This document shows, piece by piece, positions 4,291 through 19,430 of a DNA stretch of 20,997 nucleotides. This DNA is from a virus. The translations under genes and the position numbers were made by a program. Location of the stretch: IMG/VR virus record IMGVR_UViG_3300019762_000024, positions 1 through 20,997 of that record; one strand, 5' to 3'. Below the pieces are notes generated by a model, which was not told where the DNA came from, made no database searches, and saw nothing but the letters and a program-made list of their open reading frames with translations. How positions within the stretch are numbered: the first letter of the stretch is position 1; each line of letters begins with the position of its first letter.

Positions 4291-4455
4291 ATGAAAACAC
4301 TTGAATCACTAAAAGAGAATTACGGAAATTGCAACGCTGCCGCTTTAAAGCTTGGGGTTCACCCGCATCAACTGGCAAGATTGATTAGCAAAGGCGCTTT
4401 GTATAACGAAAAAGGTGAGGTTTACATACCTTCAAAGACTAAATTAAAGTTATAA
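4291..4455 (+). CDS. Small helix-turn-helix-like protein
   Basis: 54 aa, starting at an ATG preceded by AAGGTG. Residues 8-33 (about YGNCNAAALKLGVHPHQLARL) read like a helix-turn-helix in which 'NAAALKLGV' is the first helix and 'HPHQLARLI' the recognition helix, followed by a short wing-like segment (KGEVYIPSKT). That pattern suggests a Cro-like or excisionase-like DNA-binding peptide, but the call rests on pattern only. It is last in the 3387-4455 operon and is followed directly by the module-type promoter at 4458. Its first 18 bp duplicate those of the 4030 gene with one mismatch. Confidence 0.65.
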   Translation: MKTLESLKENYGNCNAAALKLGVHPHQLARLISKGALYNEKGEVYIPSKTKLKL

Positions 4456-4457
4456 GC

Positions 4458-4503
4458 ATATAACTAAACGGTATTTATAAGATTAGCTAAAGTGGGTTAT
4501 TGT
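4458..4503 (+). promoter_or_regulatory. Module promoter, copy A
   Basis: The 20-bp block ATATAACTAAACGGTATTTA (4458-4477) is followed by a -35-position TTATAA (4475-4480), a 17-bp spacer and a -10 TATTGT (4498-4503). The block is nearly identical to those at 6888, 7266 and 12741. It serves the short gene at 4650. Confidence 0.6.
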
Positions 4504-4506
4504 TTT

Positions 4507-4649
4507 GGCTGAGGATAGCCTTTTAAATAACGGGCCGTTTACTGTCCCAGTTTATTTGGTTGTTATGTGACGCATTGGAGGCTACTTGTTAGCCCTTACC
4601 GAGGCGGGAACTGCCAGTGTAGCAAAGTGCCACTATTAAGGGTTAAACT
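4507..4649 (+). promoter_or_regulatory. Structured leader upstream of the 4650 gene
   Basis: This roughly 140-nt untranslated stretch has several possible hairpins: GGCT/AGCC at 4507-4520, AACGG/CCGTT around 4530-4540, and GGCTA/TAGCC at 4580-4594. CCCTTA at 4593-4598 is complementary to TAAGGG at 4637-4642, which contains the ribosome site of the 4650 gene. The GGCTA hairpin shares bases with CCCTTA, so the two pairings would compete. That hints at translational control, but no known riboswitch class is recognised. Confidence 0.35.
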
Positions 4650-7235: not shown

Positions 7236-7257
7236 AGCCCCGTTAAGGGGCTTTTTG
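7236..7257 (+). terminator. Intrinsic terminator after the 6975 gene
   Basis: AGCCCC / GGGGCT stem, five-base loop (GTTAA) and T5. Module promoter B begins 9 bp after the end. Confidence 0.88.
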
Positions 7258-7265
7258 TTGTATAG

Positions 7266-7311
7266 ATATAACTAAACAGTATTTAACTGATTAAGCTAAG
7301 TGAGTTATTAT
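7266..7311 (+). promoter_or_regulatory. Module promoter, copy B
   Basis: ATATAACTAAACAGTATTTA (7266-7285) differs from copy A by one base. It contains the start of the -35-position TTAACT (7283-7288); a 17-bp spacer leads to TATTAT (7306-7311). The next gene is at 7401. Confidence 0.65.
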
Positions 7312-7340
7312 TTGGTTTGAGAATGGCCACTTACTTAAAC

Positions 7341-7362
7341 GGCAAGCTTTGCTTGTCCTTTT
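7341..7362 (+). promoter_or_regulatory. Hairpin in the leader of the 7401 gene
   Basis: CAAGC (7343-7347) and GCTTG (7351-7355) pair around TTT, with a further GG/CC pair across a bulged T, followed by CCTTTT. It could be a weak terminator or attenuator between promoter B and the small membrane gene. Confidence 0.35.
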
Positions 7363-10613: not shown

Positions 10614-12689
10614 ATGACGAACAAAGACGAAGACCAGCATAAAGGTTGGTTGCAAGAATTAAAAACATACCAAGAAACTGAGCTTGATAACAGAGAGAGA
10701 GCAAGAGAAGCAGACCAGTTTATTTTGGATCCAGATGGGCAGTGGCAGCCCGACATCGCACGCAGGCTAGATTCAGCGCAAAGACCGCGAATGACATTCG
10801 ACCAGACAACACCAGCTATTGAATTTATCATGGCTGATATTGAAGATATGGACTTCGGCGTTAACGTTAAGCCGCTTGCTGGTGATGCAAATAAAGATGA
10901 TGCCGAGCTACGAGAAGGCATGATCAGAACTATTGAAGCCAACAGCGATGCAATATCAATCTATCGCGATGCTGCAAGACGCATGATTCGCCGTGGATTT
11001 GATGCCTGGATTGTTCGCAGTAAATACACTGATTCATGGTGTTTCGATCAAGATTTAGCGATTGAGAATATCTCTAACGCCATCAATAGAGTATGGCTAG
11101 AAGACACAAGCACTAACCCTGACAGCTCTGACTGCGACACTGGCTATATTTTAACATCGCTATCACCTACAGCGTACAAGAAGCAGTTCCCAAAAGGCGA
11201 AATGAAATCTGTTGATGACGGCTACGTCAAAGGTGATGACTACTCGAGCTACCAACCAGAAGTCGTTGTCATTGGTGAGCGCTACTACCGCAAAGAAACA
11301 ATGATTGAGGTTGCTCAGCTATCAAATGGTGAAGTTGTCGAGATTGATGATAAATTCAAAAGCATCGTTGATGAATTGAGCGCGAAAGGAATAACTGTAG
11401 CCAGAACAAAGACAATTAAAGACTTTAATATCTATCACCGATTCTTCGATGGTGGCGGGTATTTATCAGAAGAAAAGCGCACACCATTTAAATCAATGCC
11501 TATCGTTACCGTTTATGGTAATTACGAGCTGCAAGGCAACTCAAGCAAGATTACATATTCCGGCATGGTTCAAAAGCTGATGGATTATCAACGCTCTCTA
11601 AACTATGCGAAGAGTCGTGAGATTGAAGAGGGTGCATTGGCTCCGCGCACTAAGTTTTGGATGACGAAAAAGCAAGCTAAAGGTAATGAAGCTCAGTTGC
11701 AGCGCATGAATGTTAGTGCTGAGCCAGTTCAATTCTACAACCCAGACCCAGAAGCACCTCAGCCATACCAGACTGGCGCAAATCAAATTAACCCACATCT
11801 GAATCAGTTATCGCAAGATATGAGTGTTGGTATTCAAGTCAGTGCTGGTGTTAACAACGCAATGAACGGACAAAACGCAGGTCGCATGTCGGAAGAGGCG
11901 CTACGCATGCAGATTGACCGAGGTGTTGGCGCTACACGTAAATGGGTTAACGCATTAGTTAAAGGTATTCGCCGCACAGGAGAAATACTTGTTGAGGCTA
12001 TGCCGACTGTTTACGACACTAAACGCGTTTTTCAAATCACAGGCATCGACGGCACTGAAAAACAAGTAACTCTCAACGAAGAAGTCTATGACAATGAAAG
12101 CGGCCAAATGGTGCAGCTTAACTCATTGAGCAAAGGCAAGTATAAGGTGTTTTGCGATGCTGGCCCTGCATTCGCTAATAAAATGGAGGCGGGTATTGCT
12201 TCAATGCTTGAATACGCAGCTATTGACCCGACAATCATGCAAATTGGTGGCGATGTAATGCTTAAAGCTGTTGATGCTCCATTAATAGGCACAGTGGCAG
12301 AGCGTAAACGAGCTATGATGCTTCAGCAGGGTATGATCCCTCAATCTGAATGGACAGAGGAAGAAGCAGCTCAAATGCAAGCAGCAGCGCAACAACCAAA
12401 AGAGCCTGATGCCTCGATGGTTATGGCGCAAGCTGAGTTACTCAAAGGTCAGGCTGATATGCAAGAGCAGCAAAACAGAGCTATGGAGCTACAATTGCAA
12501 GCTGGAAAAGTACAAGCTGATGCGCAAGCTAAGATTGATAAACTTGAGTCCGAGACGGCACTTAACGTTGCTAAATTACAGCAGGGACAACAGAAGATTG
12601 ATGACGACTTTGTGCTGAAGGCTACCGAGCTTGAGATAAAAGCCAATCAAGATTTAAATAGGCAAATCAGCGATAACAAAAACATCTAA
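10614..12689 (+). CDS. Portal protein, P22 gp1 type
   Basis: 691 aa, similar in length to P22 gp1 (725 aa). The N-terminal part (about 15-165) has the family pattern, including 'RPRMTFDQTTPAIEFIMADIEDMDFGVNVKPL' near 55-88 and 'MIRRGFDAWIVRSKYTD' near 122-140. The long C-terminus is helical and Gln/Ala-rich (about 575-691), as expected of the P22 portal barrel that extends into the capsid. The portal forms the dodecameric ring through which DNA is packaged and to which gp4-type tail factors attach. AAAGG precedes the ATG, and the gene ends at a terminator. Unlike P22, scaffold does not follow directly: a small transcription unit lies between. Confidence 0.93.
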   Translation: MTNKDEDQHKGWLQELKTYQETELDNRERAREADQFILDPDGQWQPDIARRLDSAQRPRMTFDQTTPAIEFIMADIEDMDFGVNVKPLAGDANKDDAELREGMIRTIEANSDAISIYRDAARRMIRRGFDAWIVRSKYTDSWCFDQDLAIENISNAINRVWLEDTSTNPDSSDCDTGYILTSLSPTAYKKQFPKGEMKSVDDGYVKGDDYSSYQPEVVVIGERYYRKETMIEVAQLSNGEVVEIDDKFKSIVDELSAKGITVARTKTIKDFNIYHRFFDGGGYLSEEKRTPFKSMPIVTVYGNYELQGNSSKITYSGMVQKLMDYQRSLNYAKSREIEEGALAPRTKFWMTKKQAKGNEAQLQRMNVSAEPVQFYNPDPEAPQPYQTGANQINPHLNQLSQDMSVGIQVSAGVNNAMNGQNAGRMSEEALRMQIDRGVGATRKWVNALVKGIRRTGEILVEAMPTVYDTKRVFQITGIDGTEKQVTLNEEVYDNESGQMVQLNSLSKGKYKVFCDAGPAFANKMEAGIASMLEYAAIDPTIMQIGGDVMLKAVDAPLIGTVAERKRAMMLQQGMIPQSEWTEEEAAQMQAAAQQPKEPDASMVMAQAELLKGQADMQEQQNRAMELQLQAGKVQADAQAKIDKLESETALNVAKLQQGQQKIDDDFVLKATELEIKANQDLNRQISDNKNI

Positions 12690-12716: not shown

Positions 12717-12740
12717 ACAACCTATAAAATTAGTATAAGT

Positions 12741-12786
12741 ATATAACTAGATGGTATTTAACTAATTGGGTTAAGTTGGCTATTAT
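12741..12786 (+). promoter_or_regulatory. Module promoter, copy C
   Basis: ATATAACTAGATGGTATTTA (12741-12760), then the -35-position TTAACT (12758-12763), a 17-bp spacer and TATTAT (12781-12786). This copy lies inside the head operon and drives the 44-residue ORF. A hairpin, GGG/CCC with a CTTG loop and outer CAC/GTG, lies about 26 bp downstream of the -10. Confidence 0.65.
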
Positions 12787-12874
12787 TTGAATTTAGAATG
12801 GACTATGCAGCACGGGCTTGCCCCAGTGGTTGCGGTTGCTATATTTGCTGGCTACACGAAAGAGGGTTAATGAA

Positions 12875-14008: not shown

Positions 14009-15292
14009 ATGGCAAATAACTACACAAGTAATACTAACCCCAAACTGGCTCGCGCCTTTATTAAAGCGTTTGAGTCTGAAACTGTCCTAATGAACACTGT
14101 GTCAAAGCAGCTAGTAAATGACATTGACGCAAGCACGGGTGGTGGTTCGACTCCGGTAGCAATGAAGCGCCCAGCTCAGTACGTGCCGCAACGTAGCGCA
14201 TCAGGCGACTTTACATCAGGCGATGCTAACCCAGTGCGCACGGGTAAAGTTTTTGGTGAAGTATCACCTAACGGCTTTATCACCGTATTCGTTGAAAACA
14301 CCCGCGTTGAAGAAGCTTTAGAAGCTGACCAATTAGATCAACTTATGAAGCCTATTGCTGAAGATATGGTAACTGAGTGTGAGTCTGAATTAGCCGCTTA
14401 CATGACGCGCAATGCTGCATTAGTATCTGGTTCGCCTGATACAGCTATCTCACAATGGTCTGATGTTGCACGCGCTGGTGCTGTGTTTAAAGAAATCGGT
14501 GCACCGTCTGGTCGCCGCTATGCTGCTATTAACTCATTCGATGAAGTTAACCTGGCAGATAAGCAAACTCAGTTAGGCGTCAATCCAGAAGTTAACTCAG
14601 CTTGGGCTGGTGCGGTAATCAAGTCAGGCTTTGCTGGTTTCGATCAAGTAATGACGACTAACAATCTTGATGAGTACACATCGGGTTCAGAAAGTGCAGG
14701 CTTAACGCTTGGCGCAACTCCTGCGGCTACTTACACAGCTTATAAAGACTCTTACCGCATGACGCTTACCATCACAGGCGCAACAGCTAACACTGGTACG
14801 TTGAAAGCTGGTCAGCAATTACAATTTGCAAGCTCATTCCTTGTTAACTCACGCAACCGCAAAATCGTTCGCGAGTCAGGTGCAGGTATCCCAATTACAT
14901 TAACTGTTTTAGCTGATGCGACTGCTGACGGCTCAGGTAACATGACTGTTAGCGTATCAGGTGCGGCAATCAATGAAGCTGGCGTAAACGGTGCGTTCAA
15001 CACAGTAAGCAAGGCATTAACTAGTGGTGACGCTGTAACTGTGCTTGGTACTGCTGATAAGTCATACCGCCCAGGTCTTGCTTATTGCGAAGGCTTTGTT
15101 GGCATGGGTTCAGTTGTATTGCCTAAGTTACACAGCCAAGACAGCATGGTTATTAATAACAACGGCGTATCAATCCGAATGACGAAAGGCTCTGACTTGG
15201 TAGGCAACAAGAATCAATATCGTTTTGACTTGTTACCGACTTTCGCAGTGTTCAACCCATTCTGGGGTATGCAGTTGCACGGCAAAGCGTAA
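14009..15292 (+). CDS. Major coat protein, P22 gp5 type
   Basis: 427 aa, against 430 for P22 gp5. The start ANNYTSNTNPKLARAFIKAFE, the VKRPAQY-like stretch 'VAMKRPAQYVPQRSASGDFTS' (about 50-70) and 'FVENTRVEEALEADQLDQL' (about 94-112) fit the P22 coat family (PF11651). A region from about 220 to 345, rich in Thr, Gly and Ala, matches the position of the P22 insertion (I-) domain, which stabilises the monomer and capsid contacts. The C-terminus (DLLPTFAVFNPFWGMQLHG) is also typical. It forms the icosahedral shell. Codon use looks more GC-rich in third positions than the accessory genes, as usual for a highly expressed gene. A strong terminator follows. Confidence 0.95.
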   Translation: MANNYTSNTNPKLARAFIKAFESETVLMNTVSKQLVNDIDASTGGGSTPVAMKRPAQYVPQRSASGDFTSGDANPVRTGKVFGEVSPNGFITVFVENTRVEEALEADQLDQLMKPIAEDMVTECESELAAYMTRNAALVSGSPDTAISQWSDVARAGAVFKEIGAPSGRRYAAINSFDEVNLADKQTQLGVNPEVNSAWAGAVIKSGFAGFDQVMTTNNLDEYTSGSESAGLTLGATPAATYTAYKDSYRMTLTITGATANTGTLKAGQQLQFASSFLVNSRNRKIVRESGAGIPITLTVLADATADGSGNMTVSVSGAAINEAGVNGAFNTVSKALTSGDAVTVLGTADKSYRPGLAYCEGFVGMGSVVLPKLHSQDSMVINNNGVSIRMTKGSDLVGNKNQYRFDLLPTFAVFNPFWGMQLHGKA

Positions 15293-16213: not shown

Positions 16214-16363
16214 ATGGCTTGGGATATCTTAGATTATGAAGGTCGAATTGTCGGTGATGGTGCGCAAAATAGCACGCCATTGCAAGGTAATAGTTGGCAA
16301 AATGTTTACGGCGCTGTCCTTTGCGATAACGTAATTGATTGTGATGAGGTGGTTATATGTTAA
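16214..16363 (+). CDS. 49-residue ORF coupled to the tailspike
   Basis: A 49-codon ORF beginning 1 bp after the previous stop and overlapping the tailspike start by 7 bp (ATGTTAA). The peptide (MAWDILDYEGRIVGDGAQNS, then TPLQGNSWQNVYGAVLCDNV) is acidic and lacks basic or hydrophobic runs. It has no recognised family. Tight spacing on both sides makes it a credible gene in this structural operon; it may be a virion-joining peptide, or a translation aid for the tailspike, which lacks a strong ribosome site apart from GATGAGGTGG within this ORF. Confidence 0.6.
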   Translation: MAWDILDYEGRIVGDGAQNSTPLQGNSWQNVYGAVLCDNVIDCDEVVIC

Positions 16364-18051
16364 CTAAATTACCAGCCTGCGGTGTTATGAAAGGGTCTGA
16401 CATAAAAAATAGGGTTGATTCCCTTATTGACTCAGAAATACTATACGCAGGCATAAAAGAGTTGCCGCAAATTGATGGCGTAACACTAAATGTAAAAGGT
16501 TTTTATGTCGGCTCAGATGTTGGTGGTGGTCAGTTTTATTATGATCCATTGAGAAGCAAAGCTGACCACAACGGCGGCACTGTAATCGCGCCCGAAGCTA
16601 TCGCTGCTTGGGATGGTACGAGTGGAGATATTGCAACCCTGCTAGATTGGAGTGGCGCTGGTGCAGGGTGTTTTGCTAGGTTAGAGATTGAAACTATTCA
16701 CATCGAGTTTTTTGGTGGCAGTGAATCTGTTAATGATAACTCTTTGCAGTTATTAAAAATGTGGGAACTTAGAAATACACGCAAGAAATTATGCGCCTAT
16801 GCAGACTCCTATAGCTACTCACAAAAAGTTACACTGAGCGCAAGTCAAAATGAAACTGGAATTAAGCTTGAGCATCTTGGTAACATGGTTTTTAATTCTC
16901 AAGACGGAATTGAATTAAGTCGTATTTTTGGATCTTCGATAACAATCGGTAATATTTGCTACTTGCAAGAGGCGGAGAATGCAAGCGTTGCAAGTGGTGT
17001 TGGTATGGTTATCAGATCTTGCTGGTCTACTGATTTTGATGTGACAGCAACGCGAAATTTCATTACTGGATCTAAATTAATTGGAGGAGGCGTTGCAACA
17101 TCTGGTAACGGCATGGCATTTTGCAATGTGTACGTGAGAAACACTAACGCACCAAGCAGTATTGGCGGAATTGCCATGCTTGTGACCACAGAGCCATTTA
17201 GCACAACGCCAGGTTATTTTAACGAAAACCACATTAAAGCTGGGTTTATTCGCGGTGAGAAAGGTATTGTTTTTGTAAAAGGAAACCTGCAAACAGATCC
17301 GTTTAACGGAAATAAGCTGCTAGAGCCGCAGATTGAAAATGCAGCCTTAACTGGCATAGAGCTAGATTTTTGCTCATCAAATGTGATACATCACCCACGC
17401 TTTGAAGGTGGTAGCGAACCTAGCGGATACTGGATTGACGAGAAATCAAACTGCTCAAGAAATGACTATTATATAACTGGATCTGTTGGATTTAGTAAAA
17501 TCAGGCTTTTAGGTATACTGCAAAACTACATAGGCAGATTAAATTCAGATTCTGGTGGCGCTCTGGCAAATCAAATGTTTGGTGGCGACAACGGCAGTGC
17601 AAACACCAACGACCACGACCTTTATTTATCGATCAAGAAAACTTCAGATACACCGCAAAATACTGTCTGCTTCGGAGGTATTTCTGGACAAACTAGATTC
17701 GAGAAATACACAGGTGTTGTCGTTGACGGTGTGGGCATAGAGAGTAAATTCGGATGGCTAAATCCTTACGGAAGTATTGATATATCATCAGATACGCAAA
17801 TTCCGCGAGGAATATCAAACATTAGAGCGCAATCAGCGTCTAACTCAGTAGTTATAACCATGAACAAGGATAGAGAGGAAAACGGATACTTTTGCTTGTT
17901 GGAAGTAACCTTTTACACTAATGACATATCAATAGCAAAGTCAACAGGCGCGGTAACTGTTCCAACTGGGAAAATAGCCAGTGAAGGTCTGTATATACTT
18001 GCATACAGAGGTGATACATGGAAGGTTAGCAGGGTTGGCGATAAGTTTTAA
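16357..18051 (+). CDS. Tailspike-like protein (beta-helix, possible depolymerase)
   Basis: 564 aa. Residues 45-110 (VKGFYVGSDVGGGQFYYDPL, then a GGTVI strand and a 'C.ARLEI' turn) match the start of many phage tailspikes and pectate-lyase-like proteins, in which 'GG..F.YD' comes before the beta-helix. The middle (about 130-400) is rich in short strands with Asn, Gly and Thr, e.g. GSSITIGNICYL and GSKLIGGGVATSGNGMAFCN, as in right-handed beta-helices. The C-terminal about 150 residues look like a separate beta-rich domain. It likely binds or cleaves surface polysaccharide. It is not like the P22 gp9 head-binding domain at the N-terminus, so attachment to the virion may use the small genes upstream. 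Confidence 0.78.
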   Translation: MLTKLPACGVMKGSDIKNRVDSLIDSEILYAGIKELPQIDGVTLNVKGFYVGSDVGGGQFYYDPLRSKADHNGGTVIAPEAIAAWDGTSGDIATLLDWSGAGAGCFARLEIETIHIEFFGGSESVNDNSLQLLKMWELRNTRKKLCAYADSYSYSQKVTLSASQNETGIKLEHLGNMVFNSQDGIELSRIFGSSITIGNICYLQEAENASVASGVGMVIRSCWSTDFDVTATRNFITGSKLIGGGVATSGNGMAFCNVYVRNTNAPSSIGGIAMLVTTEPFSTTPGYFNENHIKAGFIRGEKGIVFVKGNLQTDPFNGNKLLEPQIENAALTGIELDFCSSNVIHHPRFEGGSEPSGYWIDEKSNCSRNDYYITGSVGFSKIRLLGILQNYIGRLNSDSGGALANQMFGGDNGSANTNDHDLYLSIKKTSDTPQNTVCFGGISGQTRFEKYTGVVVDGVGIESKFGWLNPYGSIDISSDTQIPRGISNIRAQSASNSVVITMNKDREENGYFCLLEVTFYTNDISIAKSTGAVTVPTGKIASEGLYILAYRGDTWKVSRVGDKF

Positions 18052-18305
18052 TGGTCAGGCTTATAATACCACTTTCTATCGTGTTATCTGGTTGTGTAGC
18101 AATAGATAACCCTAAAATCGGCCGAAAAACGTTTAGTGTTGTCGTCGAGGAAGATTCAACCATGACAACGCTAGGTCGGCAATGGTATGTATCCGATATC
18201 TGCTTCATAAAACTTAAGGAGTACCCGATTTGCTTGCAGCACGAAATTAGGCATTGCATAGAGGGCAATTGGCATAAAGGCAGAGAAACAGACGAAGATT
18301 GTTAA
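18051..18305 (+). CDS. Small lipoprotein with HExxH motif
   Basis: 84 aa, with the ATG overlapping the tailspike stop by one base. A lipoprotein signal peptide is clear: MVRLIIPLSIVLSGC, with the lipobox LSGC and Cys15 as the lipidated residue. Near the C-terminus HEIRHCIEGNWH (about 64-75) contains HExxH, the zinc-binding motif of many metallopeptidases, with a further His seven residues on. The metzincin form (HExxHxxGxxH) is not quite met because the third His is one residue late. Roles could include a small outer-membrane or periplasmic protease, a superinfection factor, or an o-spanin-like lysis protein. It lacks the proline-rich tract of Rz1 types. The peptidase call is tentative. Confidence 0.7.
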   Translation: MVRLIIPLSIVLSGCVAIDNPKIGRKTFSVVVEEDSTMTTLGRQWYVSDICFIKLKEYPICLQHEIRHCIEGNWHKGRETDEDC

Positions 18306-18377
18306 TTAAAAAGCAGGGACGCTTTTGAGGACTAAAAAATGAAACAAGTAAACACAGGTGTTAAACAGTAAAAAATA

Positions 18378-18448
18378 GTCCTTGGCGGGACGGTCGTTTT
18401 ACAGGAGTAACTCGGCCAACCCGCTAGGACACCCGCCAAGCAATTTTT
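18378..18448 (+). other. Structured non-coding stretch with two competing hairpins
   Basis: The 5' arm GTCCTTGGCGGG (18378-18389) can pair with CCCGCTAGGAC (18420-18430), giving 11 pairs with one bulge, extended by GGTCG/CGGCC (18392-18396 / 18413-18417). Its inner part CTTGGCGGG (18381-18389) is also perfectly complementary to CCCGCCAAG (18432-18440), which is followed by CAATTTTTTA. The two pairings exclude one another, like an attenuator or riboswitch, though the 42-base loop of the second is long for a terminator. A 10-codon ORF with start 18339 lies just upstream. No known RNA family is recognised. Confidence 0.5.
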
Positions 18449-18467
18449 TAACAACAGAGGTGATATT

Positions 18468-19430
18468 ATGTCTTGGACAATAGGCGGCGGTGGCGGCGGT
18501 GGCTTGCCAGCAGATCAATCAGAATTTTTAAAACATTGGACTTACGACGAAGAAACGCGCAGGGGCAAGTTTGATGGGTCAATCGAGGTCTTACCTTCGA
18601 CATTTTACATGGGTCAATTTGCGCTCTCAAATGGAGTTCAAGCCGTTGCATTTAAATTAGCTGACGGTACTAACGCGATTGGTTTAGTTAATCGTTTTAA
18701 CCCATTACTTGGCACTATAAGTAACCCCAAATTCTTTGCTTTGGAAGCTCAAGATACATTGGTAGTCGAGAGTGTATCTACTGACGTTATCGCTGATGGC
18801 TTTACGCTTCAGTACGCGACGGCAGGAGATAACCTAACATTTGACTTTGACTTTGTGCCAGCGACGGCAGGAATGTTTAAAGCTGAGTACTGGGTAGGCT
18901 CAGACGACACTGGCAACAAAATCTTTGATGAAATGCGAAAGGTAACTCAGGCGGAAGTTGATGCAGGTTTGCCGATAGCTTTTCAAGTTGGCAATCCATA
19001 CTTACTAGAAGCTGGCACTGATTTATTTGTGCGTTTTACTGGCATTGATTTTAAAGGCAACTCAGCAACGGGTTTGCCATATTTTGTTAGTAAGATATTG
19101 CCTTACAAAGAAATCACTTTAGGTGGTTACACTTGGCATACGGCATCAGACTTGACACTGCTTGCTGGTTGCAATTACGCGCCTGACGTTACTAGCGCCA
19201 ATGTTACCTTAACCGTACCAGCTGGCTTTAAAGATAACTTCAGGATTTATGATTATAAGCGCTCTATTGGCACTAATAAGGTTATCGTTGATCTATCTGC
19301 TCACGGTGTCGAAAATGTGGAGTTAATCCACAAAGATGATGATGTTGAGTTCTTTTATATCACTGGTGACGGCTGGTATATAAACGACATTAAAGGTCAG
19401 AATCGCGTCAAAGTGCCAGCATTACCATAG
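18468..19430 (+). CDS. Putative fibre or receptor-binding virion protein
   Basis: 320 aa. It begins with a glycine run (IGGGGGGGLP, residues 5-14) that would act as a flexible link. The rest is beta-rich with alternating hydrophobic and polar residues (e.g. NLTFDFDFVPATAGMFKAEY), resembling phage fibre or carbohydrate-binding domains. The last 110 residues (about 210-320) may form a separate domain, ending NDIKGQNRVKVPALP. No family is certain. AGAGGTGAT precedes the ATG. The next gene starts 8 bp after its stop. Its position, after the tailspike and ahead of two more such genes, suggests part of a host-recognition cassette. Confidence 0.65.
   Translation: MSWTIGGGGGGGLPADQSEFLKHWTYDEETRRGKFDGSIEVLPSTFYMGQFALSNGVQAVAFKLADGTNAIGLVNRFNPLLGTISNPKFFALEAQDTLVVESVSTDVIADGFTLQYATAGDNLTFDFDFVPATAGMFKAEYWVGSDDTGNKIFDEMRKVTQAEVDAGLPIAFQVGNPYLLEAGTDLFVRFTGIDFKGNSATGLPYFVSKILPYKEITLGGYTWHTASDLTLLAGCNYAPDVTSANVTLTVPAGFKDNFRIYDYKRSIGTNKVIVDLSAHGVENVELIHKDDDVEFFYITGDGWYINDIKGQNRVKVPALP

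Follow-up and report, generated by a model that had tools for sequence, protein, structure and literature searches.

In terminator/antiterminator attenuators (trp-type leaders, protein-controlled leaders and transcriptional riboswitches), one RNA arm is used in two exclusive hairpins ahead of a gene, and the second hairpin is followed by a T-run. In phage late transcripts, intercistronic RNase III or stabilising hairpins (the T7 R-sites, for instance) are stable, irregular structures of ~20 bp located between structural genes. Lambdoid and other mosaic phages carry boundary linkers where their modules meet: short conserved islands that separate non-homologous modules, with a gene truncated there. 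Finally, the target hairpins of diversity-generating retroelements and the crossover sites of invertases place a hairpin or an inverted repeat near tail genes. The locus described here shares each of these traits and departs from all four systems. Unlike the attenuators, it has no genuine leader peptide, known ligand or protein site or Rfam match, its antiterminator-like fold is the stable default, and its T-run is offset by 3 nt and lost in a divergent homologue. It differs from hairpins of the T7 R-site type in its extra complementary third arm, and from the linkers of mosaic phages in carrying a conserved bistable hairpin instead of plain sequence. In contrast to retroelement and invertase sites, it was found with no reverse transcriptase and no serine or tyrosine recombinase in the records searched, and it lies upstream of a gene and not at the end of a variable repeat. 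It adds one more case to a familiar general class, the intercistronic bistable hairpins, and is not assigned to a family.

The stretch of DNA that we analysed (20,997 nt, hereafter the window) is an IMG/VR virus record of a marine phage with a P22-like head, encoding a terminase, a P22 coat and a P22 tail-4 protein. On its plus strand, a tailspike-like gene (16357-18051) with a conserved N-terminal anchor (~16357-16684) and a variable remainder is followed by a small lipoprotein-like gene (18051-18305; HEIRHCIEGNW motif, phrog_27783), which is also the upstream neighbour in contigs L019 and L026 and in phage H103, and by three tail (fibre-type) genes from 18468. The gene at 18468-19430 (plus strand, phrog_22216) is a relative of the Vibrio phage H20 protein H20_0090. 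A 63-base hairpin lies between the genes for these two exchangeable tail proteins. As separate observations on the upstream genes, the tailspike N-terminal domain (16357-16684) is 73-87% identical at the protein level in near relatives, with the rest replaced, and phages of Shewanella, Pseudoalteromonas, Vibrio, Escherichia and Pseudomonas have related N-termini. The HEIRHC..GNWH motif of the lipoprotein-like product (18051-18305, phrog_27783) resembles a zinc-binding site, and various phages encode proteins of the phrog_27783 type in their tail regions, with a more distant relative on a marine Pseudomonas plasmid.

The initial annotation had proposed two mutually exclusive hairpins sharing one 5' arm upstream of the fibre genes, and we found every part of both in place. 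In fold A, the shared 5' arm GTCCTTGGCGGG (18378-18389; plus strand, like the other parts of the element) forms 11 pairs, with one bulged U, with CCCGCTAGGAC (18420-18430). Fold A also contains inner stems of 5 bp (18392-18396/18413-18417) and 4 bp (18399-18402/18407-18410) and an AGGA loop (18403-18406), for a total of ~20 bp in an irregular hairpin. In fold B, the CTTGGCGGG portion of the same arm (18381-18389) forms nine perfect pairs with CCCGCCAAG (18432-18440), closing a loop of 42 nt; CAA and T6 come next (18441-18449, with the T6 at 18444-18449), and the start codon of the fibre-type gene lies 27 nt past this arm. The inner hairpin (18392-18417; GGTCG/CGGCC, TTAC/GTAA and the AGGA loop) is common to both folds. 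The AGGAG at 18403-18407, previously listed as unexplained, turned out to be just this AGGA tetraloop plus one base. We rejected it as a ribosome-binding site, since it has no start codon within reach downstream and is absent in L019.

When forced into each fold, the window sequence gave energies of −31.9 kcal/mol for A and −27.7 kcal/mol for B. The region 18378-18440 is the most stable RNA fold of the window (z ~ −5.5); for the 53-nt hairpin z was −5.57, and none of 200 shuffles was equally stable. Among 6978 segments of 64 nt taken from both strands, the element ranked lowest in energy and second-lowest in z. Moreover, the window contains a single exact GC-rich inverted repeat (9 bp or longer) in which the loop offers the 5' arm a second partner, and such an arrangement appeared in only 1 of 200 dinucleotide shuffles of the window.

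We searched for homologues by pattern scans of 2.9 million viral contigs. Besides the window, five contigs carried true homologues: L007, L008, L012 and L014, which are nearly the same phage, and the divergent L019, whose identity to the window here is 69%. Taken as a whole record, L019 is L195, apparently from an isolate genome record. Its terminase and head proteins differ from those of the window and the upstream lipoprotein gene is common to both, so the element is common to two otherwise different phages. The first scan demanded exact 9-base arms, and homologues with altered arms could therefore have been missed. Between the window and L019 the DNA separating the outer arms is 62% identical, whereas the 5' arm block (the arm with the following AC) is unchanged at 14/14 positions and arm B at 9/9, as in all six homologues. 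The probability of unchanged arms at the background rate is ~1.5e-5, an approximate value that assumes independent sites and refers to a homologue that the scan had selected for intact arms.

Both folds are retained in L019. Its fold A loses two pairs, keeping the core CCGC and the terminal GAC of the 3' arm, with 6 bp of core and 3 outer bp remaining. L014 differs at two positions of arm A, and both changes (G-U to G-C and G-C to G-U) preserve pairing. The energy gap between A and B is small throughout, at 4.2 kcal/mol in the window, 1.3 in L014 and 0.6 in L019. The inner stem, which was not selected by the scan, has in L019 one pair changed on both sides (C-G to U-A) and another changed on a single side (U-G to C-G). 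MAFFT placed the inner stem of L019 one column out of register, which we corrected before reading the pairs; it is this misplacement that makes the automatic pair count report zero double changes. Covariation across homologues, which had been named as a check on the structure, amounts to one double-sided compensatory pair, in the inner stem of L019, and the standard automatic count shows none. Support for a conserved pair of exclusive folds is real; it comes from essentially two independent sequences and its covariation is thin.

Additional viral scans yielded no more homologues. A covariance-model search of 89 sources (the window and the collected loci) found no further copies, and the model had no match in five bacterial genomes. 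A pattern scan of 84,980 bacterial and archaeal genomes returned 34 matches, and those inspected included no recognisable homologue, being mostly chance or unrelated palindromes, for instance a repeat in the MAG JANXUD01. DNA similarity searches against phages, plasmids and E. coli genomes gave chance-level matches only for the element. Rfam, queried at the gathering score and at permissive thresholds, returned no family and merely a meaningless weak miRNA match; a tRNA/tmRNA search found none; and we found no description of this element in the published literature. As an aside, the gammaproteobacterial MAG JANXUD01 carries a near-perfect palindromic repeat of ~110 nt, often at contig ends (loci L152, L159, L162, L165, L167, L169, L170 and L172), which looks like a MITE or similar sequence, unrelated to the phage element.

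Next, we considered the order of folding. In growing-transcript predictions the A stem forms once its 3' arm leaves the polymerase, i.e., before B, and fold A is the more stable one in every homologue, so that read-through would be the default; with a predicted barrier of 11-17 kcal/mol from A to B, fold B would need A to be blocked. As regards a terminator role for fold B, the CAA and T6 that follow the 42-nt-loop hairpin are kept in the five close sequences, but A forms earlier and is more stable, and in L019 the bases at the position of the T-run are AGATAAAATTC, with the U-run gone. Fold B also differs from the window's other terminator-like hairpins, which are short and canonical with a T-run right at the stem, such as CAGCCGCTTAATTGCGGCTTTTTT at ~415 and CAGCCCCTTAATTGGGGCTTTTTT downstream of the portal gene. 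Hairpins of this ordinary kind occur at ~415, 7240, 8408, 12697 and 13077, several with a CTTAATTG-type loop and the T-run directly after, and similar ones lie just after the coat gene in relatives such as L044-L046, L048, L055 and L057. Weak terminators within the late region would thus not be unusual, and it is the form of the element that sets it apart.

Two other modes of control were considered and rejected. Masking of the ribosome-binding site is not supported as a translational switch, because the predicted accessibility of the Shine-Dalgarno sequence is nearly equal in the two folds (0.41-0.66 in A and 0.45-0.59 in B). A promoter at the hairpin is not conserved: L019 has TGTTATAAT just upstream, and the others do not. 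Elsewhere in the window there is a dispersed intergenic repeat of ~65 nt with the consensus ATATAACTAAACGGTATTTAACT..ATTA...AAGTGGGTTATTGTTTGG.TTGAGAATAGCC and only a weak consensus hairpin, which is possibly a phage promoter or operator family. Its copies lie at 4449-4535, 7257-7343 and 12732-12818, and the otherwise different phage L195 has copies at 11605-11706, 10995-11106 and 14010-14106, all on the minus strand.

The reading that we prefer, though tentatively and at somewhat less than even chances, is that in the fibre-segment leader of the late transcript the element works as a conserved cis-acting RNA structure, with A as the default read-through fold and B forming conditionally as a terminator or end structure. 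Hairpin A would fold first behind the passing RNA polymerase, and transcription would normally continue into the fibre genes. Hairpin B would be confined to a minority of transcripts, those where A fails or some factor blocks it; followed by the U-run in window-type phages, it may act as a weak conditional terminator or as an mRNA-end or processing structure, and its formation would lower the fibre message relative to the tailspike message. In favour of an RNA structure we counted the exceptional stability of the fold, its rarity among shuffles, the six carrier contigs and the unchanged arms, together with the compensatory and pair-preserving changes, the small energy gaps, the early folding of A with its barrier to B, and the island kept between unrelated tailspike and fibre bodies. 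Against it we counted that only one homologue is truly divergent and that it has lost two fold A pairs and the U-run, that the compensatory evidence is a single double-sided pair missed by the standard count, as well as the unlikeness of fold B to the canonical terminators. We also counted against it that Pseudoalteromonas phage H103 and Vibrio phage H20, which have relatives of the downstream genes next to their upstream neighbour, lack such an element there, which indicates that the element is dispensable for that gene family. A more ambitious version, in which a previously undescribed bistable RNA switch travels with the exchangeable fibre cassettes of estuarine phages, sets the fibre:tailspike ratio and responds to a phage or host factor, appears distinctly unlikely.

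The alternative that fares best, although somewhat unlikely, is an intercistronic stability or processing hairpin, in which any fold would protect the 3' end of the upstream mRNA or be cut by RNase III, so that the tailspike and fibre messages would decay independently and the second partner would be mere redundancy. The irregular ~20 bp of fold A suit such a role, as does the inner hairpin, which is retained by both folds in all homologues; the U-run lost in L019 would be unnecessary. What this explanation leaves unaccounted for is the exact complementarity of arm B amid drifting intervening bases.

An unlikely second alternative is that the site is first of all a recombination linker, kept mainly because its identity, or its inverted repeats as DNA, lets related phages swap cassettes. 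The initial annotation had suggested a recombination site for the exchange of fibre cassettes, and the comparison of the window with L014 bears out its position between exchangeable receptor-binding cassettes: the two share 93.5% identity as far as 16684, inside the tailspike gene, and are unrelated beyond, 94.7% identical only within 18373-18485, and unrelated again afterwards. L007, L008 and L012 compare with the window in the same way, with slightly longer islands. This plus-strand island of 113 bp (69% identical in L019) is a short conserved stretch between non-homologous modules, and since the tailspike and fibre bodies on its flanks are non-homologous, the element also marks a cassette-exchange boundary. 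Judged from these alignments, two cassettes that are replaced independently of each other are joined by a conserved linker, with the element as its core. Four different left flanks join the island within a few bases of one point, and the remnant of a broken siphovirus tail gene stops immediately 5' of it, where there is a TTAAA microhomology. At 69% identity, though, L019 could hardly recombine with the window, yet its pairing arms are unchanged, and ordinary homology needs no hairpins. Nor did we find a serine or tyrosine recombinase (PF00239, PF00589) in the window and its relatives, whose records are mostly fragments. A search of the same, mostly fragmentary, records for the reverse transcriptase (PF00078) of a diversity-generating retroelement was likewise negative. 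Inspection by eye also led us to set aside an integron attC site, as the flanking GTTAAAC/TTTTAAC are in the wrong order and not conserved, and a gix-like half-site in the loop (TTACAGGA), for which no second half-site or invertase was seen. A linker role may well coexist with the RNA role of our preferred reading, in which the surrounding 113 bp would provide the homology for swaps of tailspike and fibre cassettes by ordinary homologous recombination.

It is very unlikely that the element acts as a protein site on DNA, with three related copies (one direct, two inverted) serving as an operator or as accessory sites for a phage or host protein. The three arms are indeed related 9-12-mers that are conserved in L019, and DNA folding favours the outer B stem; but the arm differences in L014 keep pairing and not a common motif, there is no candidate binding protein, and the motif occurs nowhere else in the window.

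The 10-codon ORF at 18339-18371 (plus strand, MKQVNTGVKQ*), whose stop lies 6 nt before the hairpin, had been likened to the leader peptide of an attenuator. It is instead a relic of a major tail protein gene of siphovirus type, of which a truncated 5' end is left. In L026 and L027 the lipoprotein gene is followed by an AAAAGC..GCTTTT hairpin, ATGAAACAAGTAAACACAGGCGTTAAA and then an uninterrupted 167-aa gene (L026:5288-5791), whose product matches the major tail protein family phrog_158 (E = 7.5e-14). Homology between the window and these contigs ends a few bases short of the hairpin, at GTTAAA (18365), with a stop codon next. Three of the six homologues (L012, L014 and L019) keep the hairpin and lack the ORF, which is thus not a conserved leader. 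A classical attenuator controlled by translation of this ORF is scarcely credible, even with the expected arrangement of an ORF, a short gap, two exclusive hairpins and a T-run, since the ORF is what is left of the beginning of an unrelated tail gene and lacks any run of regulatory codons, and a ribosome at its stop would, judging from its footprint, cover the 5' arm used by both folds and leave no choice between them.

Phages with two receptor-binding proteins need to balance them, and RNA-level control of their ratio is little known. A structured, conserved leader at the exact point of cassette exchange would, if true, reveal how a fibre gene retains its regulation after being swapped in. 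Taken as nothing more than a linker, the locus still provides a clear cassette boundary, scarred by a broken gene, and such a scar can mimic a leader peptide.
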